From Fidelibacterota bacterium (GTDB taxonomy: Bacteria > Fidelibacterota > UBA8477): a DNA stretch of 28,539 bases. Location of the stretch: positions 1 through 28,539 of the forward strand of contig JAIPJR010000037.1 of NCBI GenBank assembly GCA_021734045.1. The letters run 5' to 3'. A model generated the notes under the pieces. The model was not told where the DNA came from, did no database searches, and saw only the letters and a list, made by a program, of their open reading frames with translations. The position numbers and the translations under genes were made by a program. Shown one piece after another: positions 4,588 to 18,480 of this stretch (within the stretch, counting starts at the first letter, position 1; the number at the start of each line of letters is the position of its first letter).

Positions 4588-6594
4588 TTATTGCCCTGAT
4601 ATTGCTTTCAGTAAAATTTCTAAATCAAAAAGAAACGATTGATTATGCAGATAATAGTTTAGCAGTTTTATCCTCTCATTTTCTTCTAATTGATTGGACT
4701 GGCGAATATCCTCCAGCGATACGATTCCGGGCTTCACCATATCGTTATCCAGTGTCAAATCAATTGGTGCCCCCACCAGACTCATTTTACCCTGCCAGAC
4801 CTCTCTGAGCATGGGCAGGCGCTCTTTTACGACCCCCCACTGCTTTCCTGAATCCCATAAAAAAGCGCTGGAGAGGGTTGAGTGCTTATCGAATTTTTTC
4901 AATCTCGCCTGAATCGCTGTAATCGGCCACCAACTAAGCGAAAGAAGCAGTGTGAGCGCTAAATCCCCAAGCCGTTTCATCACACGATTCCAGGGTCGAA
5001 AATAATCAAATCGCATGTCAACAAGCTGAATATCCCGGATATCTTCCACCGAGGATTTACCAATGATAAAGGTTAAATTGCCGGGCACAAGCCTAAAATT
5101 CACACCCATTTTGCCTAACTGGGGAATGTAGCGGAATAATTGCTTCAGATTAATCTGCTCAGAGGCAAAAATGACCTCCCGGATATTGTGAATTAAAATC
5201 AAATCCGGCAAATCACTTAAATCACCCAGTACCTTACTGTCTTCCTCACCAGTTCCCCGTTTCTCCATCACAATTCCCACCGGTTGGTAGCCGTACTCCA
5301 GATGGGTATTCAATCGGGAATAGATATGCCGTGCATTTTCCAGGTCACCCACGATAAGTGTCTTACGAAAATCCAGTGGCGACGACCCCCGTCTTCGGGT
5401 CCTCCGGCCAGCTAAAATTCGCCACCCGGGTACCCAGATCATAATACCCACAAATACCAGAATCAGAACCTGCCTTGAGAAGGCAAATTGTTTGAAAAAG
5501 AAAGTTAGTGTGACATTGAATAAAAAGCCCAGACCCACTGCCACAATCGCCCGACTAATGGAATACCGGTAACGATTATAAAGTCCCACCGACCGGAAAG
5601 AGAGCAGCCAGACAAGCAAATACACACTGGCAATGATGACATAGGCCGTGAACGCATCCTGCTTGTAAAACTTAACCAGAATACTCAATGCCATCATACC
5701 TAAGATACCTACTACATCTACCACAACCGGCCAGGCATCCTGACTAAAACGCCCAATCACAGACCCCATATATCGCACAAATATTCCCAGACGCAGCATC
5801 CAGTGAAGCGGCCGCCAAAACAGTCCCCTAAAATGCTTCCGTGCAAAAATATCCATGGCACGATAAAAATTCCCCAGTGCGTCCCATCCGGCGTATTTAC
5901 TGGATTCGCCCTTGTAATGCACGATGCTGGTAATGGGTGTGTAACGCACCTCCCAATCAGCCGCATGGAAACGGTAAGCCCAATCCAAATCCTCCCCGTA
6001 CATGAAAAAATCCTCGTCCAGGAATCCTACAGCATCCACTGCGTCCCGACGGGCGAACATGCAACTGCCACTCACCGCATCCACTACCGTTTCCTCATCC
6101 GGATCCAGATAGGTAAGGTTGTATTGACCGAAGAGTTTGGATTTGGGGAAGAGCTTCGCCAAATCGGAAAGCTTGGTAAATGAAACCCAGGGTGTGGGAA
6201 ATTTCCGCCTGCAGGCTAACTGCAAACTGCCGTCGGCATTGAGGATCTTACAGCCACACAAACCCACTTTGGGATGCGTCTCCATGTACGCAATCAATTT
6301 GGCCGGTGTATCTTCCTGTACCAGCGTATCCGGATTCAACAACCACACATACTGCCCACGGGAGATTTTCAACGCTTGGTTATTCGCTTTCGCGAACCCC
6401 AAATTTTTGTCATTGGAAATTACTTTCACATCCGGAAATGTACTGGCCAACATCTGCAGACTGCCATCCACAGAGTTATTATCCACCACAATAATTTCAG
6501 CCGATATTCCAGTAAGGCTGTTGTACAGACTGTGTAGCGCCTGCTGTAGGAAGGCTTTTACATTGTAATTAACAATGATGATGGTGAGTTGCAT
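4588..6594 (-). CDS. GT2 rhamnosyltransferase-like / degenerate WbaP-type phosphoglycosyltransferase fusion
   Basis: The 668 residues hold two enzyme architectures. Residues 1 to about 250 are a family-2 glycosyltransferase of WbbL/rhamnosyltransferase type: VVDNNSVDGS (36-45), the LNPDT nucleotide-sugar motif (86-90) and GEDLDWAYR (200-208). Residues about 289-395 form four membrane helices, about 405-530 a Rossmann-like CoA_binding_3 domain, and about 537-668 a domain matching the C-terminal core of polyisoprenyl-phosphate hexose-1-phosphate transferases (WGVVKERLPMLREVWQGKMSLVGAP read in pieces, then KPGI). The phosphoglycosyltransferase part looks inactive: the usual Asp-Glu dyad in the DELPQL-like motif reads ERLPML (591-596), and the preceding KFRSM-type region is missing. 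The neighbouring rfbD makes dTDP-L-rhamnose, a plausible donor for the GT2 half. The product probably belongs to a lipid-linked surface glycan. Activity is inferred, not shown. Confidence 0.8.
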   Translation of the reverse strand: MQLTIIIVNYNVKAFLQQALHSLYNSLTGISAEIIVVDNNSVDGSLQMLASTFPDVKVISNDKNLGFAKANNQALKISRGQYVWLLNPDTLVQEDTPAKLIAYMETHPKVGLCGCKILNADGSLQLACRRKFPTPWVSFTKLSDLAKLFPKSKLFGQYNLTYLDPDEETVVDAVSGSCMFARRDAVDAVGFLDEDFFMYGEDLDWAYRFHAADWEVRYTPITSIVHYKGESSKYAGWDALGNFYRAMDIFARKHFRGLFWRPLHWMLRLGIFVRYMGSVIGRFSQDAWPVVVDVVGILGMMALSILVKFYKQDAFTAYVIIASVYLLVWLLSFRSVGLYNRYRYSISRAIVAVGLGFLFNVTLTFFFKQFAFSRQVLILVFVGIMIWVPGWRILAGRRTRRRGSSPLDFRKTLIVGDLENARHIYSRLNTHLEYGYQPVGIVMEKRGTGEEDSKVLGDLSDLPDLILIHNIREVIFASEQINLKQLFRYIPQLGKMGVNFRLVPGNLTFIIGKSSVEDIRDIQLVDMRFDYFRPWNRVMKRLGDLALTLLLSLSWWPITAIQARLKKFDKHSTLSSAFLWDSGKQWGVVKERLPMLREVWQGKMSLVGAPIDLTLDNDMVKPGIVSLEDIRQSNQLEENERIKLLNYYLHNQSFLFDLEILLKAISGQ

Positions 6595-8329: not shown

Positions 8330-9352
8330 TTAATCCAACTCCGGACGCGCAAAACCAAAGGTTTTTACCATCATTTCAATTTGACGAATATAAGGTAATT
8401 TCTCCCTGTCCGGCGCCCAGACTATGCCCGTCAGAACGAATACTATATCCTGCTCTGGTGCGTAAAATGTGTACGCGATGAAGGGGCCACCCTTTATCTC
8501 AGTTTTATGTTCCCACAAGCCGCGGAACTCAACTGCACTATGACTGTTTAGCCAGGTCTCCTGATTGGAAAAATATTTTTCCGTAATCCATACATCCGGA
8601 ATAAGCGTGCCATAAACCTTCTTTATTAGCTCCTCACCAATTGCCTGAAGCTCGAAAGATTCCGGTGCATCCATCCAGTGAACCACAATCCACCGGAAGG
8701 GAAAATCTCGACCCAGCCAGACAAACTGTCTGTCCGGTGCGTTCCTGATTTCCACATAATCATGCATGATACGCAGGTACCAGCCGTACTGGTGAAAATA
8801 GTCATCCGCCAATTCGGTCTGTTCACCGATACGATAGATAAATTGTGTCAACCGCTTTTGGGTCTGCTGGTCCATCATGTCGAACAGATCCTGTCGGTTT
8901 AGACGAATCCGTGCCTGCAAATCACCGTCAGACTTCCCCAGGATTATCATGAGCGTCTGACCGTCTGCGTAAGCATTTCGCCGGCTGTAAAAGCGCCGGG
9001 AAGCATTGCGAATGCCATTTAAAGTGGTGTCCGGTAACATCGTTTTTAAAACCGGCGTTAACAGACTGCTTACTTCCAATTGACTTATGAGGATAAGGTT
9101 TTTATGCAATCTGAACTTCTCAAAATCTTCCGGTTGCACCCATCTTAACTGGTAAAATGTCTCCACCTGCGGTGTATAAATGACTTTTTCAAATGTCTCT
9201 TCCAGGTAGGGACGAGCGATTTCCCAATTGGATTCGTCAGCCACCACAATGATTTCATAATCACTACCTTCGGCTGGTTGCTGTCGCCTGGTAGCACACC
9301 CGGTAATAATAAAAATTGCCAGCAGGGATATGGCGATACGATTCAAAAGCAT
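8330..9352 (-). CDS. DUF4837 family lipoprotein
   Basis: This 340-residue protein is probably lipid-anchored: MLLNRIAISLLAIFIITGC gives a positively charged start, a hydrophobic core and a lipobox ending ITGC at residue 19. The mature part begins with a short linker, then YEIIVVADESNWE, and resembles the DUF4837 proteins of Bacteroidota and relatives as I remember them, including a WIVVHW stretch and a C-terminal segment around the sequence HKTEIKGGPFIAYTF. No function is known. ATG at 9352 is chosen because GGGGGAG lies five bases upstream and the signal peptide starts there; the frame is open further upstream but inside RNase R. One base separates it from the rnr stop, so the two are probably co-transcribed. 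Confidence 0.75.
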   Translation of the reverse strand: MLLNRIAISLLAIFIITGCATRRQQPAEGSDYEIIVVADESNWEIARPYLEETFEKVIYTPQVETFYQLRWVQPEDFEKFRLHKNLILISQLEVSSLLTPVLKTMLPDTTLNGIRNASRRFYSRRNAYADGQTLMIILGKSDGDLQARIRLNRQDLFDMMDQQTQKRLTQFIYRIGEQTELADDYFHQYGWYLRIMHDYVEIRNAPDRQFVWLGRDFPFRWIVVHWMDAPESFELQAIGEELIKKVYGTLIPDVWITEKYFSNQETWLNSHSAVEFRGLWEHKTEIKGGPFIAYTFYAPEQDIVFVLTGIVWAPDREKLPYIRQIEMMVKTFGFARPELD

Positions 9353-9353
9353 T

Positions 9354-11549
9354 TTATCTCCCCCTGTTCTTTGTGGATCGGCCCCGTCTGCGACCCCGCC
9401 TTTCACGGTCATCGCGGGCTGGCTGCTGCTTTTGATGTGATTGCTCAGCATGCTCCAAAAGCTCAAAATCAGCCATGCGTTCCTCCACGGACACGGCAGC
9501 AACCCGAATGGTTACCGGATCGCCCAACTGAAAACGCTTTCGGGTTCGTCGTCCCACCAGTGCAAACTCATTCTCCTTGAATTCATACCAATCCTCATCC
9601 AGCGTCCGGATGTGTACCAGACCCTCCACGAAGGTATCCGCCAACTCAATGAACAGACCGAAATGCATGACGCCGGAAATAATACCCTTATGAGTCTCGC
9701 CTACCCGTTTGCTCAAATACTGCAGCTGCTTGATTTTGATGTGTTCCCGCTCCGCTTCCACAGCCACCCGCTCCCGGGCTGAACAATGTTTTGCCACCTT
9801 CTCCAGGGCCGTAACCTGGGGCGCATTTTTCAAGGCATCGGGTGACGCATAGCGTTTTAACAAGCGATGAACCATCAAATCAGGGTAGCGTCGGATGGGT
9901 GAGGTAAAATGGGTATAATTTTGAAACGCCAGACCAAAATGACCGCGGTTTTGGGTGGTGTAAATGGCTTTGGTCATAGAGCGCAAGGCCACCTTTTCAA
10001 TGAAGTGTCGATAAGGACTTTCCCTTACCAATTCCACCACCTTTTGAAAGTCCATAGAACGCACCGTGTGACCCAATTGGTAACGAATGCCGACCCGGGT
10101 GAGAATTTCCCTGAAACGATTCAAATCCTCATCCTGCGGGGGATCATGGACTCGAAATATGAACGGTGGCGGCACCTGGCGCATATTTTCAATATGAGTT
10201 GCGACTGTTTGATTCGCCAGAAGCATGAACTCCTCCACCAGCCGATGACTGTCCAGGCGCTCAGAAGCTTTTATCTCCACGGGAAAACCGCGTTCATCCA
10301 GCTCGAATTTTGCCTCAGGCAAATCAATATCCACAGACCCCAGCGCTTTGCGTTTTTTGTGAAGGATACGCCATAGTTGATTCATCTCCTGTAGCACAGA
10401 ACTATATTCATCCGTAACCTCACCACTGAGAATTTGATGCACAGCCGTATAGGTATAGCGCTTCCGGGACCGAATCACCACTTGTTCTATACTGTATTTT
10501 CTTACCTCTCCTTTTTCATCCAAATCCATTACACACGCCATGGCGAGCCTGTCAGTGTCCGGTTTCAAAGAACATAGATCGCCAGCAAGCTCCTCCGGTA
10601 ACATGTGAATCGCACGGTCGACCAAGTACACACTGGTCCCACGCTCCCGGGCACCCCGGTCTATGGGACTTCCCGGGGTCACATAGTGGGATACATCCGC
10701 GATAAAAACCCCGAGACGCCAGCCATTTTTTAATTTTTCCACACTCACGGCGTCATCAAAATCAGCCGCTGTTGCCGGATCAATGGTAAAACATTCCACA
10801 TGACGCATGTCGATTCGCTGTTGAAGCTCTTCCTGAATCGACTTCTCACTGAACGATTTAGCTTGAGCGATTGCGGCTTTGGTCCATTTCACCGGCAGAT
10901 TGAATGTGCGGATTATCGATACTGCATCCAGCCCCGGATCACCCGGTGTGCCCAATACTTCGCGAACATGACCGACTGGTTCCAGATCCGGAGACTCCCA
11001 GGAAACCAGCTCCACCACCACCAATTGCCCTTCTTGAGCATCGCGGGTATTGTCGTAGGGAATCAGAAATCGGCGGTGGAATGATTTATCTTCCGGTGTC
11101 ACCCAACAACCAAAACGATCCATGGTATAAATACCCACGAATTCTGTCCGGTTGCGTCGAATAACCTCCACGATCCGACCTTCACGATTCTCCCCTGATT
11201 TGCCAGCCAGCACCTCGGCTCTTACCACATCTCCGTCTAATGCCAAATATAGATTCCGCGCACTGACAAATATGTCCTCGCTCCCGGGTGTCTCAATGAA
11301 TCCGAATCCGCGACTGGTTACCGATAACGCGCCGGTGATAGTCTCCTGCTTCGGTCGCATGCCAAACTGATGACGACCGGTCTTTTGGATACGTCCCTCC
11401 TGAAATAATTGCCCTATGACGGATTTGAATAAGCCATAATCCGGTTCGCGTAATTTTAAATGCTTAAAAAGAGTACGCTGCTTATACGCCCGGTTGGCGT
11501 TTTTCTTTAGATAATCCAGAATTTTTTTACGGATTAATTCTCTATCCAT
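9354..11549 (-). CDS. rnr: Ribonuclease R
   Basis: RNase R is a processive 3'-to-5' exoribonuclease that degrades structured RNA, including mRNA and defective rRNA. The 731 residues show the full domain order: N-terminal helix-turn-helix-like segment (1-65), cold-shock domains (about 70-200), RNB catalytic domain (about 245-570), S1 domain (about 618-695) and a basic Arg/Lys-rich tail (705-731). The RNB metal-binding residues are present in TIDPATAADFDDA: D257, D263, D265 and D266. TSPIRRYPDLMVHR (549-562) is the other RNB hallmark. The ATG at 11549 lies inside the end of the Omp85-like gene (16-base overlap), suggesting coupled translation in a long operon. Confidence 0.97.
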   Translation of the reverse strand: MDRELIRKKILDYLKKNANRAYKQRTLFKHLKLREPDYGLFKSVIGQLFQEGRIQKTGRHQFGMRPKQETITGALSVTSRGFGFIETPGSEDIFVSARNLYLALDGDVVRAEVLAGKSGENREGRIVEVIRRNRTEFVGIYTMDRFGCWVTPEDKSFHRRFLIPYDNTRDAQEGQLVVVELVSWESPDLEPVGHVREVLGTPGDPGLDAVSIIRTFNLPVKWTKAAIAQAKSFSEKSIQEELQQRIDMRHVECFTIDPATAADFDDAVSVEKLKNGWRLGVFIADVSHYVTPGSPIDRGARERGTSVYLVDRAIHMLPEELAGDLCSLKPDTDRLAMACVMDLDEKGEVRKYSIEQVVIRSRKRYTYTAVHQILSGEVTDEYSSVLQEMNQLWRILHKKRKALGSVDIDLPEAKFELDERGFPVEIKASERLDSHRLVEEFMLLANQTVATHIENMRQVPPPFIFRVHDPPQDEDLNRFREILTRVGIRYQLGHTVRSMDFQKVVELVRESPYRHFIEKVALRSMTKAIYTTQNRGHFGLAFQNYTHFTSPIRRYPDLMVHRLLKRYASPDALKNAPQVTALEKVAKHCSARERVAVEAEREHIKIKQLQYLSKRVGETHKGIISGVMHFGLFIELADTFVEGLVHIRTLDEDWYEFKENEFALVGRRTRKRFQLGDPVTIRVAAVSVEERMADFELLEHAEQSHQKQQPARDDRERRGRRRGRSTKNRGR

Positions 11550-12952
11550 CGTCGGTCTATTCCAGTGAGTTGAATGTGAATAAGCGCATTACGCCACGTG
11601 AGCGCGGGGTTCTTGCCCAAAGAGATGACCAAAGGTCCAATATTCGTAACGACACGGGCGCCAAAGCCGTACCCTATCATGGTCTGCGTGTTATTGGATG
11701 AGGTGAGCCAGCCATAGTCATTGAAGATAAACATCCTTGAATTTTTTCCTATATCAATTGCCAAATCATTTTGTAACGCAGTGGTTGTAACGCCCCGATA
11801 TTGGTCCTCAAAATAGCCTCTCACGGAGCGACTCCCACCAAGTGGCTGGAGCAATGACGGATCCGTCTCTACATCACCCTGTTGGTAATGGGAAAACGCC
11901 AAACGGCTGGTATAGTGGCAAGATTTAATAAGCGGTACACGCCCAATGGTGCGAACCGAGAGAGCTTTTACCGCATCATTCCCCTGGGCTAATTCCATTT
12001 TATACAGGGTGTTAATGGCAAAATATGGCGCCCCTTTTTTATCCGGTGGTGAATATGTAAAACCCAGTCCCAGAGAATTTCGTAGCACATCCCGCCAATT
12101 CTCATCAACCGTTTGACCAGTGAATGTGAGCGTATTTCGCAGCCGTTCATATACCGCACGAACGCTCTGCCACGAACTCACCCGCCAGTCAATATTCAGC
12201 GTGAATCGCTGAGTGATATAGTTACCATTCACCACCTCACGCCAAAAACCAAGTGTGCCGTTTACCGGAAAATTCAGTATCCAGGGTTCTGTGTAGGTAA
12301 AATTAAACTTTTCTGCATCCGCCCGACTGCGCTCCCAATCCAAGCGTAATCTGCGTCCGGTGCCCATTACATTGGGTATATCCACATGAAAACTCCCAAC
12401 CCACCGGATAGAATCAGCGCCCGGATCGCGCTCCGCACCAACCACACCATCAAACTGGATTGTGGTTGCTTCACGGGCATTATACACCAGAATATTCCGC
12501 TCTTTAAGTGTGTCCCTGAATACTCCAACCCGCTCCAGCGTCACCAGATCCAGTTGATTGATACGCGCTTCAGCAGACGGAATTGCATTGGGGGTAATAA
12601 TTGAGTCCATTCCAAAATAGAATTCCCTTGTCAGAATATGGGGGTCAGTTTGCGCTAATTTCCGGAATTCGATTGCATCTATCTGAGCGCTTGGACCCTT
12701 TACCAGCTTTACCATAATGAGCGGAGGAGCGACTGTCGTATCCCAACTTAAAACCTCCCATTTTACATGAAAATAGCCGGATTTGACTGAATGGTTCACC
12801 AGACTATCCAGGAATGATGAAATATCTGCCGGGGAGAGTGTCTCCTGTAATGTGAGGCTATCACTTTCTATGATTCGTAGCTGGACCAAACCATCCCCGG
12901 CATTTACCGGAATGGCAAATAAGGTCATTATCATCAGCAGTCTGAGAGACAC
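11534..12952 (-). CDS. Omp85-superfamily outer-membrane barrel (BamA/TamA-like)
   Basis: The 472-residue protein starts at GTG 12952, one base after the stop of the preceding gene, with a short signal peptide (VSLRLLMIMTLFAIPVNA). Residues about 20-145 look like one or two POTRA-type modules. From about 160 the sequence alternates as a beta-barrel. GGSRSVRGYFED (372-383) carries the conserved VRGY/RGF motif of loop 6 in Omp85 proteins, and FNFTYTEPWIL resembles their early barrel strands. It is shorter than BamA, nearer to TamA or two-partner-secretion transporters. Omp85 proteins insert or translocate outer-membrane and secreted proteins; the client here is unknown, but the giant barrel encoded just before it is the obvious candidate. 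A start at 12934 or 12928 (ATG) is possible but would shorten the signal peptide. Confidence 0.8.
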   Translation of the reverse strand: MSLRLLMIMTLFAIPVNAGDGLVQLRIIESDSLTLQETLSPADISSFLDSLVNHSVKSGYFHVKWEVLSWDTTVAPPLIMVKLVKGPSAQIDAIEFRKLAQTDPHILTREFYFGMDSIITPNAIPSAEARINQLDLVTLERVGVFRDTLKERNILVYNAREATTIQFDGVVGAERDPGADSIRWVGSFHVDIPNVMGTGRRLRLDWERSRADAEKFNFTYTEPWILNFPVNGTLGFWREVVNGNYITQRFTLNIDWRVSSWQSVRAVYERLRNTLTFTGQTVDENWRDVLRNSLGLGFTYSPPDKKGAPYFAINTLYKMELAQGNDAVKALSVRTIGRVPLIKSCHYTSRLAFSHYQQGDVETDPSLLQPLGGSRSVRGYFEDQYRGVTTTALQNDLAIDIGKNSRMFIFNDYGWLTSSNNTQTMIGYGFGARVVTNIGPLVISLGKNPALTWRNALIHIQLTGIDRRWIEN

Positions 12953-12953
12953 C

Positions 12954-15900
12954 TTAGAAATAGGCCCGTCCCTCCATCCGGAAATACTGTTCCACACCCC
13001 GCGTGCCCCGTTTTCTTAGGCTGAAATTGCTCTGCAATTGAAAAGTATTGGAAAAACGGTAACTGGCATTAATCCGGTACTCCCAGTTTTTTCCCGGCTG
13101 GCGGCCCTCGAACAGGGCATACGGAAGATTATTCTGGCGGGAACGCACGGTTCCGAACTCAGCGGTTTGGTCAAGCCGTCCGCGTCGTAAAATATGCCAT
13201 TGATGGGCCAGTGAAATTTTCCAAGCATCATCAGCAGCTGAAACCCCCGATTGCTCTGCTCGCTGGAAAAGTACCGACGATTCAAAATCCTGGTCACGCC
13301 CTACAGAGAGTGGCACGTTAAGATTGACACCATACCGGTTCCAATCCTCGTTCTGGATGGGGTTGTAGCTTAGGGATCGTTTTTGGCGCTCACTGGAGAA
13401 GGCAGTGGAAATTTTCCTGTTCGCCACCACCCAGTCCAGCCCTAATTCCTGTCCTACCGCTTCAAACGATTCGCCGCCATAATAATGAAGGTTGTTATCA
13501 TTGCGGGATATGCGCAGACGATAACTCACTGATTCCCAAAGAGTATGAGGATTTACTTGAATCTCTGACAGGCTGGTAAACCGGTCGAATAATACCCAAC
13601 TCGTATCGGTGCGCGTCTTCTTTTCCACATTTAATGTGGAATATATTTTAAGCGGCAAACCCGATAAAATGCCGGGCATTTTTTGTGATAATTGATGTGA
13701 AAAGCGTGCGGTGCTGTGGCTGGTCAGACTCCTTACCCGCTCCTCCACTTCCGTATAGCTGCGTTGCTGGAGCCAGCGTCCCCCGGGCGTGGGAATGTAT
13801 CCATACACCGGATCGTAGCTATAATTGCCATATCCCGTATCCACCGGGATGTAATAATATTCGAACCGGGGAATGCGCTCTTCATTCAGATCAAAGCTCG
13901 TCTGATAGCGCAATTTTTCCTTGAATAACTGTCCCTGCACATCAGCATTGGACAGGATAAATCCTTGTGATACTGATGGATTGCTCGGTGAATTGTACTG
14001 TTGGCGATAGGCTACGCTGATTTCTCCATTCATCCATCTATTTTGTTGGTGAGTGAACCGGATACCGTAATCATCCCGTGACACCGTCCAGTCCTGATTT
14101 CTCACAGCCAGAAACACCGGTGCTGCCACAGAATCCTGCGCCAACTCATTCCGCCGCTGGAATGTCAGGTCCACAGTTGAATTCTCACCGAAGGCATAAC
14201 CAGCGGTCACCCGATTTAAAACATGGTTGTTGTTCCTGAAAAATGATGTATCCTGCCGACCTGATTCAGATTCGATGCTCCCACTCAACCGCCATTTCCC
14301 AGGGTGCCAATTTCCAGCCCAGGCATGTCGCTGCCAACTTTGCTCACTGGAAAAGCTTATCCAATCATCTGTCCAGCGAAATTGAGACTTTTCGTAAGTC
14401 CCCAAAAACCCTTGGGTACTGGTGCGAGAAGCTATTTTTAAACTATCGCGGTCGAATTCATCCAGTGAGATATTCACATTCATTCGATCTGATTTTTGGA
14501 CTCCCAGGGTTAAACGCTGATACCGGTCCTCCTCAGTACTACGGGGGCGGACTTGCCAGGTGCGGTAGAATTCCTCATTATGAACCGATTCGTAGACGCG
14601 AAAGTCTTTTCCCAGATTTTCATCGTTGAGTTCAAGTTCAACAACAGCCTGCTCACCCAGGGGAATTTTAACCCGGGCACCACCTCGCCAGGCGGGCTGA
14701 CGAATCCGTCGCTCCTGCAGCGCATAGGAATTTCCATTAAAACCCGACATCGCACCATCAAACCAAGTATCCAGGTATTTCCCATTGTAATTAATGCGTG
14801 CGTTTGCCATGGTGTGCTGTTGCGGTGCGCGGTATGCACGCCGAGGCGTATAGGCACCCGTCAATGGTGCGTATTGGTAATAAACGACCCCTGTAATATC
14901 CTGCACCTTTTCATATTCACCACGCCCGGCACCCATAAATGTAAATGTTGCCGAATACAATCCTGCCCCACTCCCTACATACGTCAGAATACTATCTGGG
15001 CTGAGCAGATAGGCACCGGCAGAATCAGCTTTGATTGTACTCGTCCAAATTGGTCCGGAGACATCTGCGTAATCGTCCAAAACCTCCCGGAGCGCATCAA
15101 CACTCACAGTTCCCAGCGGATTGCGGGCATCATCCTGGATGAGGTTACCAGATATTTGCCAGAACCATTGCTGGGTGGTGTCACCGTAACCCACATTCAT
15201 TTTTAATAACTGTTTACCAAAACTGTAATCGGCCAGGTAAGCATCAGCAGCATATTCAAATTCCACCACAATTCGGTTCTGACTGGAAATCATGTGTTGA
15301 CCGGTGAAATTGATTTCAGCGCTATTGTAATCAATTATATAATCTGCATTCTCACCACGGGTCATCACCTCCCCATCGAGCCATACTGTTTCCGTGCCCG
15401 CCAAAATCAGGATAAAGTGCTCGCCATTTTGCCCCTTTAGGACATAGGGACCCTGTTTTCCGTCCTGCCCCTGGAAGCTCTGGCGATGATAGGTACCGTA
15501 TGAAAAACCACCGCCCATGTAAGAGTGCCATTTCCCTTGTCGCCCCGCTACCCATAACCCGTTTGTCTTTCTCTGGAACCTGGCAAACCCGCCATTTTCA
15601 AACTCACCCAATTCAATATCACCGATCTGGCTGACTAAATTTTCGCTCTCCAATTTGATGTAAACTTTATCCAGTTCACTGAGTGTCTGCGAGTTACCCA
15701 AGGGTTGTAAGGGAGAGTTCTGATCCGTTAAGACACCGGAAACTTTAATTCCCGTACCCAATGAGCCATTTAATCGCAGATGCATGCTGGATTGTAGGGA
15801 TAGACCCTGAGCCGATCCCAACTGCAATCCGCGGGTTATGTAACCGTGTGCTGCTAAATTTTGGTTCTCTGGCTGTAATATCCCCGAAACGGGAGCTCGC

Positions 15901-16118
15901 TGCGTGCTGTCCATTTCAGATTCAGGTGTGTAGAAGGGTAATTCAAATCCGCCCTTCCGGGGAATGGCAATGGCAGAATCGGTTCCGGCAAAAATTATCA
16001 AACTATCCGTCCCCAATTGGACAGGCTCTGTCAGAATTTTCGTGCTTAAGGAATCCTGACCGCGCGCACCAAGCACGCCCAGAATCAGTAACAGAATTGT
16101 GTGGACGCGAAAAGTCAC
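12954..16118 (-). CDS. Very large predicted outer-membrane beta-barrel protein, function unknown
   Basis: The 1054-residue protein begins with a signal peptide (VTFRVHTILLLILGVLGARG). From about residue 90 it is rich in Tyr, Trp, Gln, Asn and Ser with alternating hydrophobic strands, as in outer-membrane barrels. The N-terminal third has a distinctive conserved-looking block: GYITRGLQLGSAQGL, then LTDQNSPLQPLGNSQTL, then GDIELGEFENGGFARFQRK, then ILAGTETVWLDGE and YIIDYNSAEINFT. I remember similar blocks in unnamed large proteins of FCB bacteria, but cannot name a family. The last residues (RMEGRAYF) end in Phe, as barrels recognised by BAM often do. The GTG at 16118 overlaps the TGA of the propeller gene (GTGA), implying coupled translation. 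The next gene is an Omp85-like barrel. Confidence 0.7.
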   Translation of the reverse strand: MTFRVHTILLLILGVLGARGQDSLSTKILTEPVQLGTDSLIIFAGTDSAIAIPRKGGFELPFYTPESEMDSTQRAPVSGILQPENQNLAAHGYITRGLQLGSAQGLSLQSSMHLRLNGSLGTGIKVSGVLTDQNSPLQPLGNSQTLSELDKVYIKLESENLVSQIGDIELGEFENGGFARFQRKTNGLWVAGRQGKWHSYMGGGFSYGTYHRQSFQGQDGKQGPYVLKGQNGEHFILILAGTETVWLDGEVMTRGENADYIIDYNSAEINFTGQHMISSQNRIVVEFEYAADAYLADYSFGKQLLKMNVGYGDTTQQWFWQISGNLIQDDARNPLGTVSVDALREVLDDYADVSGPIWTSTIKADSAGAYLLSPDSILTYVGSGAGLYSATFTFMGAGRGEYEKVQDITGVVYYQYAPLTGAYTPRRAYRAPQQHTMANARINYNGKYLDTWFDGAMSGFNGNSYALQERRIRQPAWRGGARVKIPLGEQAVVELELNDENLGKDFRVYESVHNEEFYRTWQVRPRSTEEDRYQRLTLGVQKSDRMNVNISLDEFDRDSLKIASRTSTQGFLGTYEKSQFRWTDDWISFSSEQSWQRHAWAGNWHPGKWRLSGSIESESGRQDTSFFRNNNHVLNRVTAGYAFGENSTVDLTFQRRNELAQDSVAAPVFLAVRNQDWTVSRDDYGIRFTHQQNRWMNGEISVAYRQQYNSPSNPSVSQGFILSNADVQGQLFKEKLRYQTSFDLNEERIPRFEYYYIPVDTGYGNYSYDPVYGYIPTPGGRWLQQRSYTEVEERVRSLTSHSTARFSHQLSQKMPGILSGLPLKIYSTLNVEKKTRTDTSWVLFDRFTSLSEIQVNPHTLWESVSYRLRISRNDNNLHYYGGESFEAVGQELGLDWVVANRKISTAFSSERQKRSLSYNPIQNEDWNRYGVNLNVPLSVGRDQDFESSVLFQRAEQSGVSAADDAWKISLAHQWHILRRGRLDQTAEFGTVRSRQNNLPYALFEGRQPGKNWEYRINASYRFSNTFQLQSNFSLRKRGTRGVEQYFRMEGRAYF

Positions 16119-16912
16119 TTCGTGTCTTGAATTGGGGTGAGTACTGAATGTCCAGCCGCGGGTGACCAAATCCTAACCGTGTTGGATTTGTCGTCCGAAA
16201 TAACGATGGCGCTGCTATCCGGTAGTTGAAATTCGCGTGGACTACCCGGACGAAGGTCAATCGCGATGAGTCGGCTTGGCGATACCTGTTTAAATATCAT
16301 GGTTTGGCGGGTAAATCCCGCATAATCTGCCGAAATCGATGGTTTTGAAAAGGTGAAAAGTCGGTTCCCAAAAAGATCATATATCGTGATTTGGACCTCA
16401 GAAATAACCACCATACTACCGGGAATCGCTACAATATTATCTGGACGTCCGACCTCTGGTAACCGGAAGGGAATGTTGGAAGTACCATTGGTAGGCACAA
16501 TGATTCCATCGCCGTCACTGGTAATGAACCAAAAATCCCCCCATTCACTCACATTCCAGGCTGCAATCACACCGTAGATTTTGAGCGCACTCAGGGGAAT
16601 GGTTTCAAGTGCATTTATCCTTTTATCATAAGTCGTAATTACCTGTCTGTCTGGCTGATAGCGGTAGATGGATAATCCGCGTTGGACGATAATATCCTCA
16701 GGTTTAACGCGTAATTCTGCGACCGGTTTGATGCCCGGTTGATCCCATTCACCCGGTTTATTCCATATCGCAATTCGCGTAGCAGAGCGGGTAAAGTATT
16801 GGTCAGTTTCCAGATGTATGATTTGGGTAATATTTTGATTTGATTGCGAAAATACCGTCACCGACAACAGCAGGGTGAATAAAATAGTGGGTAGCTTTTT
16901 ACACATGAACAT
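16115..16912 (-). CDS. Secreted propeller-like protein of unknown function
   Basis: The 265-residue protein has a signal peptide (KKLPTILFTLLLSVTVFSQS, cleaved by signal peptidase I; no lipobox). The rest consists of short repeated strand patterns ending in aspartate or glycine turns (IAIWNKPGEWDQ, SIYRYQPDRQVIT, FWFITSDGDGIIV, ITIYDLFGNRLFTF, VRIWSPAAG), which suggests a beta-propeller of about five or six blades. No catalytic motif is visible. ATG codons at 16912 and 16906 are both possible; GGCTGGA lies just upstream. Its stop overlaps the start of the giant barrel gene, so the proteins are probably made together and may interact at the periplasmic side of the outer membrane, which is inference. 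The 121-bp gap before it may hold a promoter, but none was convincing. Confidence 0.65.
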   Translation of the reverse strand: MFMCKKLPTILFTLLLSVTVFSQSNQNITQIIHLETDQYFTRSATRIAIWNKPGEWDQPGIKPVAELRVKPEDIIVQRGLSIYRYQPDRQVITTYDKRINALETIPLSALKIYGVIAAWNVSEWGDFWFITSDGDGIIVPTNGTSNIPFRLPEVGRPDNIVAIPGSMVVISEVQITIYDLFGNRLFTFSKPSISADYAGFTRQTMIFKQVSPSRLIAIDLRPGSPREFQLPDSSAIVISDDKSNTVRIWSPAAGHSVLTPIQDTK

Positions 16913-17033: not shown

Positions 17034-17600
17034 CTACCGGGATTTCTCATGAAATACGATGGCTTCGAACCAGTATATTCTGGTATCCGAATCCTGCCAG
17101 GCGGTTTTATCCAGACCCGCTTTTTCACATGTGTAACCCAAAAATTCTTCCCGGCTCCAGCCCCATTCTACCGGCACCTGCGGTAGCAATAATCCTCGAT
17201 GCCAATCCTTCTCAACGATAAGTCCGTGACGGCCGAGTTCGATTAAGTCAATATCCGGCACCATCTCCGGCTGTGTAAGTACAGATATTTCTATTGTTAA
17301 ATCGGGTAATTTCTGTGCAGTCACCGGCGGAAAACGGGGGTCCCTCTCGGCAGCAGAAATAGCGGCTTCCTGAATAACGGCAGGCAGGGGATCGTCACTC
17401 GCTGTAAAACCGATACAACCTCGCAATTTTCCGTCTTGGTTCAGCGTGACAAATGCTCCCGTGTGCACGTGTGACAGGCGCACCAATGCTTCCGTATCCT
17501 GCCATCGCGGAATGTCACGATGAGTCAAATGCGCTTGCAGTGTCCGACGCGCCAGGTCCAGGAGAAATTTCTTTTCTGTGGTACTTATTTCGAATTTCAA
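17034..17600 (-). CDS. AMMECR1-domain protein (AmmeMemoRadiSam system protein A)
   Basis: This 188-residue protein consists almost wholly of an AMMECR1 domain. The strictly conserved LRGCIG motif is at 59-64, followed by SAAERDPRFPPV and LTIEISVL. The C-terminal half has GLLLPQVPVEWGWSREEFL and the terminal ARG/TRIYWFEA-type strand expected in the family. In bacteria and archaea this domain commonly occurs with Memo-like and radical-SAM proteins in the so-called AmmeMemoRadiSam set, whose biochemical role is unsettled. The ATG at 17600 overlaps the stop of the Memo gene as ATGA, so the two are translationally coupled. The radical-SAM partner is not in the window. Downstream, 121 bp separate it from the propeller gene. 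Confidence 0.93.
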   Translation of the reverse strand: MKFEISTTEKKFLLDLARRTLQAHLTHRDIPRWQDTEALVRLSHVHTGAFVTLNQDGKLRGCIGFTASDDPLPAVIQEAAISAAERDPRFPPVTAQKLPDLTIEISVLTQPEMVPDIDLIELGRHGLIVEKDWHRGLLLPQVPVEWGWSREEFLGYTCEKAGLDKTAWQDSDTRIYWFEAIVFHEKSR

Positions 17601-18430
17601 TGCACGAAAATCCCAGCTGACAGATATCCTACCACCTGATTACGGTCACCGGCCGTATCACCGGAATTCCGACGATCAAGAATGCAGATTTCCCGCTTGC
17701 CCGGCAAATCAGCAGTTACCTCTAAAATGGTCATCACTGGACCATACCCACACGCCTCAAATTCCCGGGTCCGGATACCCTCCCAGAGCCGCGAAGTATC
17801 ACCAGTAGTCAGCACAGTGGTAAATTTCTGATCCAGCACATTCGCGTTTTGATAAGCATGATAGTGCGATAGATCCGAGCTGGCGACCAATAATACGCGT
17901 TCATTTATTAGTGGTTTGAGGATTTCAGCAAGTTGTTGCGCCAGCGAGAGGGTCTGCTCTCCCATCACCAGTGGCACCAATTGAAATTCATTCCCTAAAA
18001 AATACTGCAGGAATGGTAACTGAACTTCCAACCCGTGCTCCTGACCATGTCCCAATTTGCTTGCTTCAACCAGATTTGAGCCCGTTAGCACTTCCACCAT
18101 TTTTGTATTGATTGAGATGTCCCCCAAGGGTGTTGAGTAGCCCTGCCCGGGATAAACGGACACTCCCTCAAACCCATCGAAGTGTGATGGTCCGATAAGA
18201 ACCACAGTATCAAACTCACCCTGCCTGATCAAATGATACCCGCTATGGGCAATGGGGCCGGAATAAATGTAGCCGGCATGCGGGGCGATTAATGCCCGTA
18301 ATTTACCGGTATTTGGTGCGGGATGTGCGTTGGCATCCCATTGATGAAACATTTTCTGAATGACACGAGGATTATCGGGATAAAATGTTCCTGCCACCCG
18401 CGCTGATCGAAATTGTTCAATGAATTGCAT
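17597..18430 (-). CDS. Memo-like protein (AmmeMemoRadiSam system protein B)
   Basis: Memo proteins share a fold with non-haem-iron extradiol dioxygenases (LigB). In this 277-residue protein the Memo signatures are clear: REARVAGTFYP-like start (SARVAGTFYPDNP), APHAGYIYSG (49-58), IGPSHF (79-84), EHGLEVQLPFL, SSDLSHYH (184-191) and EACGYGPV (225-232). H51, H83, H189 and C227 correspond to the metal-site residues known from human MEMO1, so the site appears intact. I chose ATG at 18430; a TTG at 18445 only adds five residues. No ribosome-binding site is evident. Its last codons overlap the AMMECR1 start. Reported activities of the family relate to copper binding or redox chemistry; the bacterial role is not established. 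Confidence 0.93.
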   Translation of the reverse strand: MQFIEQFRSARVAGTFYPDNPRVIQKMFHQWDANAHPAPNTGKLRALIAPHAGYIYSGPIAHSGYHLIRQGEFDTVVLIGPSHFDGFEGVSVYPGQGYSTPLGDISINTKMVEVLTGSNLVEASKLGHGQEHGLEVQLPFLQYFLGNEFQLVPLVMGEQTLSLAQQLAEILKPLINERVLLVASSDLSHYHAYQNANVLDQKFTTVLTTGDTSRLWEGIRTREFEACGYGPVMTILEVTADLPGKREICILDRRNSGDTAGDRNQVVGYLSAGIFVH

Positions 18431-18480
18431 GGTATGAATATACAAATAAATCGTCTTGAATTAGAAGGATTCAGAAAAAT

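Follow-up and report, generated by a model that had tools for sequence, protein, structure and literature searches.

The window, that is, the whole stretch of DNA that was analysed, comprises an entire contig (C119; 28,539 bases) of a 2.54-Mb MAG that is 92% complete. At its centre lies a tightly packed series of minus-strand genes:

16115-16912, minus strand: propeller gene, an open reading frame of 265 amino acids with a signal peptide
12954-16118, minus strand: predicted giant outer-membrane barrel, 1054 amino acids read from a GTG at 16118, with a TAA stop at 12956-12954
15192-15464, minus strand: small domain of the giant shared with SprA, residues ~219-309 (bounds approximate), located by hhalign against a SprA profile
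11534-12952, minus strand: dedicated Omp85-family protein, 472 amino acids from a GTG start at 12952, assigned by PF01103, AlphaFold2 and a tree
9354-11549, minus strand: RNase R gene with an ATG at 11549, named from its own sequence

The TGA stop of the propeller gene (16117-16115) and the GTG start of the giant (16118-16116) overlap by 4 bases (GTGA), and a 1-base gap separates the stop of the giant from the Omp85 start codon at 12952. These tight junctions, all on the minus strand, amount to translational coupling of propeller, giant and Omp85, in agreement with the initial annotation, which described the three genes as overlapping or abutting by a few bases. The motifs quoted there were also recovered, LTDQNSPLQPLG, GDIELGEF and LAGTETVWLDGE in the giant, and VRGY in the Omp85 protein. 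The arrangement of the trio is not due to chance, as dozens of genomes repeat this gene order and strand with equally tight junctions. Promoter- or terminator-like sites did not exceed the chance count anywhere in the stretch. The Omp85 stop (11534) falls inside the start of RNase R, with an overlap of 16 bases; in Neomarinimicrobiota, few loci have RNase R two genes behind the giant, and this gene, although it runs downstream in the same direction, probably lies outside the module.

Further along, a DUF4837 protein (8330-9502; E 3e-35) follows RNase R in the same direction, and putative DUF4837-like genes, linked by sequence clustering only, are found in the vicinity of the giant at a small number of Neomarinimicrobiota loci (L054, L069, L087 and L103). 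Two adjoining genes just upstream of the propeller (17034-18445) look AMMECR1- and MEMO1-like from their sequence, and at 4588-6594 a single 668-residue protein combines a GT2 glycosyltransferase and a WcaJ-type polyprenyl sugar-phosphate transferase.

The giant is predicted to be an outer-membrane barrel and not a soluble protein, as first annotated. Its AlphaFold2 model, based on 77 sequences (pLDDT 80, pTM 0.73), is a barrel with about 36 long strands between residue 89 and the last residue (34-39 depending on the cut, by our own count from the DSSP string), and 109 of 113 homologous ORFs end in a C-terminal phenylalanine, as do outer-membrane proteins. No Pfam match reached cut-off for the giant or for 12 of its relatives, NCBIfam and PHROG likewise gave no match for the window protein, a comparison with PDB sequences, profile search included, returned no credible relative, and the family is not named in any paper found by literature search. 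The N-terminal block that had been singled out as distinct corresponds to the first barrel strands together with the small domain shared with SprA. A phage origin was rejected in view of the missing PHROG match, as was identity with BamG of Bacteroidota, given the lack of a FadL Pfam match and the far larger number of strands.

Members of the giant family are ~1050-1200 residues long and occur in one copy per genome where counted. They were found in 50 of 60 relatives within or close to the phylum Neomarinimicrobiota, and one scan of GTDB genomes yielded at least 569 confirmed loci, with titles that name Neomarinimicrobiota, KSB1, Calditrichota, LCP-89, Zixibacteria, Ignavibacteria, Kryptonium, Balneolia and Bacteroidota; the Bacteroidota genera include Pedobacter, Rufibacter and Phaeodactylibacter. 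Judged by these matches, the family spans the FCB superphylum. It is unusual that a protein of this size, present in ~59% of the Bacteroidota-phylum sample described below and in most Neomarinimicrobiota, has no family entry.

Within Neomarinimicrobiota, all 49 assessable genomes have the Omp85 gene as the next gene behind the giant, one of them across a gap of ~0.5 kb; one further giant, at a contig end, was left out of this count. The propeller directly precedes the giant in 28/28 assessable genomes outside family f2 and in 0/17 within it, where a CAAX protease gene is found instead, and since it is missing from the locus in this whole family, the propeller is not indispensable. In a wider scan, an adjoining Omp85 was seen at 18 loci (Neomarinimicrobiota, KSB1, Calditrichota, LCP-89, Zixibacteria and other relatives), and the full trio recurs in KSB1, Calditrichota, LCP-89 and Zixibacteria. 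At the Ignavibacteria and Bacteroidota loci the Omp85 gene does not adjoin the giant, which usually stands alone, and in some Bacteroidota-phylum genomes propeller and giant still overlap, the Omp85 gene lying ~6 kb away. Rare adjacency in relatives would have counted against the initial interpretation, but the genes do stay together: in Neomarinimicrobiota, the phylum of the window, and in no fewer than four further groups of phylum rank, giant and Omp85 gene are neighbours. Adjacency is lost in most Bacteroidota, where co-occurrence is kept, and one family lacks the propeller at the locus.

At locus L050, the last ORF (14120-15364) ends in EEHTSELQSH, which looks like a translated sequencing adapter; the end of this contig is thus probably artefactual, which makes the lack of an Omp85 there uninformative. 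In four Bacteroidota-phylum genomes (L140-L143), the giant's Omp85 gene lies divergent beside that of a ~1175-residue secreted protein, which carries Ig/cadherin-like repeats at L140, the one searched.

The Omp85 protein matches PF01103 with 35 bits (cut-off 24). Its AlphaFold2 model (pLDDT 81) consists of two POTRA-like domains and a 16-strand barrel, with BamA, TamA, CdiB and FhaC as fold neighbours (Z 23-28 for BamA, TamA and FhaC), and the combination of POTRA domains, 16-strand barrel and an RGY/F-type motif (VRGY) places it in the Omp85 superfamily. BamA, the essential assembly factor, has five POTRA domains; the BamA model TIGR03303 gives the window protein 36 bits, against a cut-off of 297. 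In a maximum-likelihood tree the window Omp85, whose branch is long, belongs to a clade (support 100/99) that contains all trio Omp85s as well as those Bacteroidota and Ignavibacteria partners that are not linked to the giant. Outside this clade fall the BamA-length proteins, with which the genome's own C69 protein groups, other paralogues, including the genome's own C82, and the E. coli proteins, among them TamA, itself on a long branch. The tree and the TIGR03303 score, far under cut-off, reject BamA as an identity for the window protein, and the tree speaks against the genome's ordinary TamA as well, the TamA-like paralogue being C82. What is encoded next to the giant is, as had been supposed, an Omp85 protein separate from C69 and C82 and tied to the giant.

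This tie was quantified in 296 Bacteroidota-phylum genomes, with the giant-linked Omp85 type called at E<=1e-40. The giant is present in 175 of them, in 164 together with the Omp85 type and in 11 on its own; no genome has the Omp85 type only, and 121 have neither, so that the type occurs in 164/175 giant-bearing and 0/121 giant-negative genomes. SprA, the translocon of the type IX secretion system (T9SS), was found in 228/296 genomes, and within these the corresponding numbers are 163 with both, 11 with the giant only, 0 with the Omp85 only and 54 with neither; the pairing is therefore not a by-product of the T9SS. Of the 11 giant-only genomes, seven have an Omp85 of 540-585 residues that just misses the threshold; in two others there are pieces at contig edges, and the remaining two give weak matches only. 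The Fisher values for the pairing (8e-71 and 9e-42) overstate certainty, since the genomes are related and not independent. In nine giant-bearing genomes with no adjoining Omp85, each has one full-length strong match to the trio-Omp85 profile elsewhere. The coupling of giant and Omp85 is strongly supported.

Foldseek placed SprA entries (6h3j and 8gl8) at the top of the matches to the giant model, and SprA (8gl6) also occupies the top row of a second structural aligner, with the longest alignment (Z 17.0, 593 residues, model 82-1054). The likeness is low in absolute terms (TM-score ~0.24; a porin reaches Z 16.5, SprA 17.0), and porins tie with SprA in Z, but over far shorter alignments; part of it is expected for any big barrel. 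At the level of profiles, a domain of ~80 columns in the giant matches the SprA profile in hhalign with E 1.3e-7, whereas reversed and six block-shuffled SprA controls gave E 0.017-0.6 (best 0.017). This domain carries LAGTETVWLDGE...DYIIDY; a second, weaker copy lies near the N-terminus (E 4e-5), and two further collinear giant/SprA barrel stretches have marginal scores of 0.003-0.008. The DY-IDY motif, which we take to be a common hairpin motif, also gives a weak match to Pfam DUF2460 (E 5e-4, below cut-off), and the SprA domain match alone is therefore not proof of whole-protein homology. SprA_N (PF14349) is unmatched by the window giant and by the 12 relatives, and a separate SprA of 2006 residues, with an SprA_N match of E 1e-38, is encoded elsewhere in the same genome, which led us to reject the giant as SprA itself. 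Because of this separate SprA, the lacking SprA_N match and the half length, we refer to the giant as SprA-like and not as SprA.

The window propeller has no Pfam match of its own. It matches a profile of trio propellers that does not contain it (E 1.5e-7; hhalign E 7e-7), as does the propeller of a congener, also not included (E 5e-7), and NHL repeats (PF01436) are present in 18 of 19 positional relatives. By these matches it is probably a divergent NHL-type secreted beta-propeller. In the alignment, two of its relatives (L070 and L080) have lipobox-like N-termini.

The reading towards which we lean, if by no wide measure, is that the trio constitutes one module, made up of an SprA-like large-bore barrel, an Omp85 protein dedicated to assembling it and a propeller in an accessory role. 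The giant would be a single-chain beta barrel in which a few N-terminal strands are followed by an inserted domain region with the SprA-like motif and then by the remaining barrel, which would close with a phenylalanine beta-signal. The Omp85 protein would fold and insert this oversized client alongside the general BAM machine. Since its presence depends on the giant and the operon coupling is tight, the simplest reading of the Omp85 protein is that of a dedicated assembly factor, for which the TAM-dependent assembly of fimbrial ushers provides a precedent (PMC5717340). The propeller would act as an accessory periplasmic subunit, apparently lipid-anchored in some lineages, and might either hand the client to the Omp85 protein or gate the periplasmic mouth of the giant. 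BamB-type propellers serve BamA. The assembled giant would most likely form a wide conduit for protein or polymer, the export role of SprA being an analogy only. The initial proposal of a stand-alone outer-membrane assembly or secretion module, with a function that we infer, fits this reading, except that adjacency is lost in most Bacteroidota and that one family lacks the propeller. A bolder version, which we put forward tentatively as possible, is that the trio represents a second, FCB-wide family of SprA-type giant translocons, distinct from the T9SS and equipped with its own Omp85 insertase and periplasmic propeller, and hence an unrecognised export system.

The main rival, which we consider rather unlikely, holds that giant and Omp85 form one standing machine in which the Omp85 protein is a working subunit and not an assembly factor. 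Such a machine could be a complex for secretion or for the export of surface lipoproteins, with the propeller as periplasmic substrate receptor. A constant giant-Omp85 pairing over the superphylum and the SprA-like fold of the giant would suit such a machine, and Omp85 proteins also secrete (FhaC is a fold match with Z 24); however, no cargo or substrate gene is conserved among the neighbours of the giant, where only the propeller and the Omp85 gene recur. We regard it as distinctly improbable that the module is an accessory of the T9SS, either a second SprA-like translocon or a helper in SprA assembly. The domain common to giant and SprA and the presence of SprA in 174 of the 175 giant-bearing Bacteroidota-phylum genomes are consistent with such a role, but SprA is so widespread that this overlap is expected, and the 54 SprA-bearing genomes with neither giant nor Omp85 argue against it. 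The same holds for three small Neomarinimicrobiota genomes of family f7 (G027, G045 and G051; ~0.9-1.0 Mb, 96-98% complete), which keep SprA and have no match to giant or Omp85, and no T9SS gene was seen at the giant locus. That the Omp85 protein secretes the propeller, or part of it, in a two-partner-like manner, with the giant as an unrelated porin in the same operon, is hardly credible: the ShlB/FhaC-type Pfam match just above cut-off (27.4 against 22.7) and the small POTRA number would agree with it, but the Omp85 tracks the giant and not the propeller, f2 genomes having giant and Omp85 with no propeller at the locus, and a Pfam search detected no TPS domain in propeller or giant, so that the Omp85 was rejected as a TpsB for want of a TPS-domain exoprotein.

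Given the strict tie of the giant to one Omp85 clade, a barrel of very large size may require an insertase to itself; this is relevant to a question still open, namely why several Omp85 proteins are maintained in bacteria. The data point to a conserved, so far uncharacterised outer-membrane machine across a large bacterial group.

Among known systems, SprA/Sov, the 36-strand T9SS translocon (PF14349), is, like the giant, a very large single-chain FCB outer-membrane barrel, and among solved structures it comes closest in terms of aligned length; the common domain of ~80 residues occupies the same relative order in both. The giant differs from SprA in its length (~1050-1200 versus 2000-2700 residues, i.e., half), in its terminal phenylalanine, where the aligned SprAs end in IRG, IKG or ISG, and in having an Omp85 partner of its own. 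SprA is a protein-export channel whose partners are PorV or Plug, PPI, SprE and SkpA (PMC10994853). The BAM complex of Bacteroidota (BamA, BamD, BamG and BamH; PMC12611786) resembles the trio as FCB-wide assembly machinery with extra subunits; however, BamG is a 14-strand FadL-type barrel, which the giant is not, and the window Omp85 is not BamA. BamB-type and NHL propellers share with the trio propeller that they are secreted or lipid-anchored and encoded with an Omp85 protein; the trio propeller has NHL-type repeats in its relatives and is encoded with both giant and Omp85, any relation to BamB being putative. Fjoh_0402, the Flavobacterium 'TamA', is a non-lipoprotein Omp85 present in 11 of 30 Bacteroidota (PMC12045153) and, as we guess from its description, may belong to the giant-linked Omp85 family. 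Like the window Omp85, TamA-type proteins have few POTRA domains and occur beside BamA, whereas the window protein appears to be set apart from TamA by its separate clade, its strict tie to the giant and the absence of a TamB gene adjoining it within the window. For the giant-linked Omp85 lineage, of which the Flavobacterium protein may be a member, the giant is a candidate client that can be put to the test.
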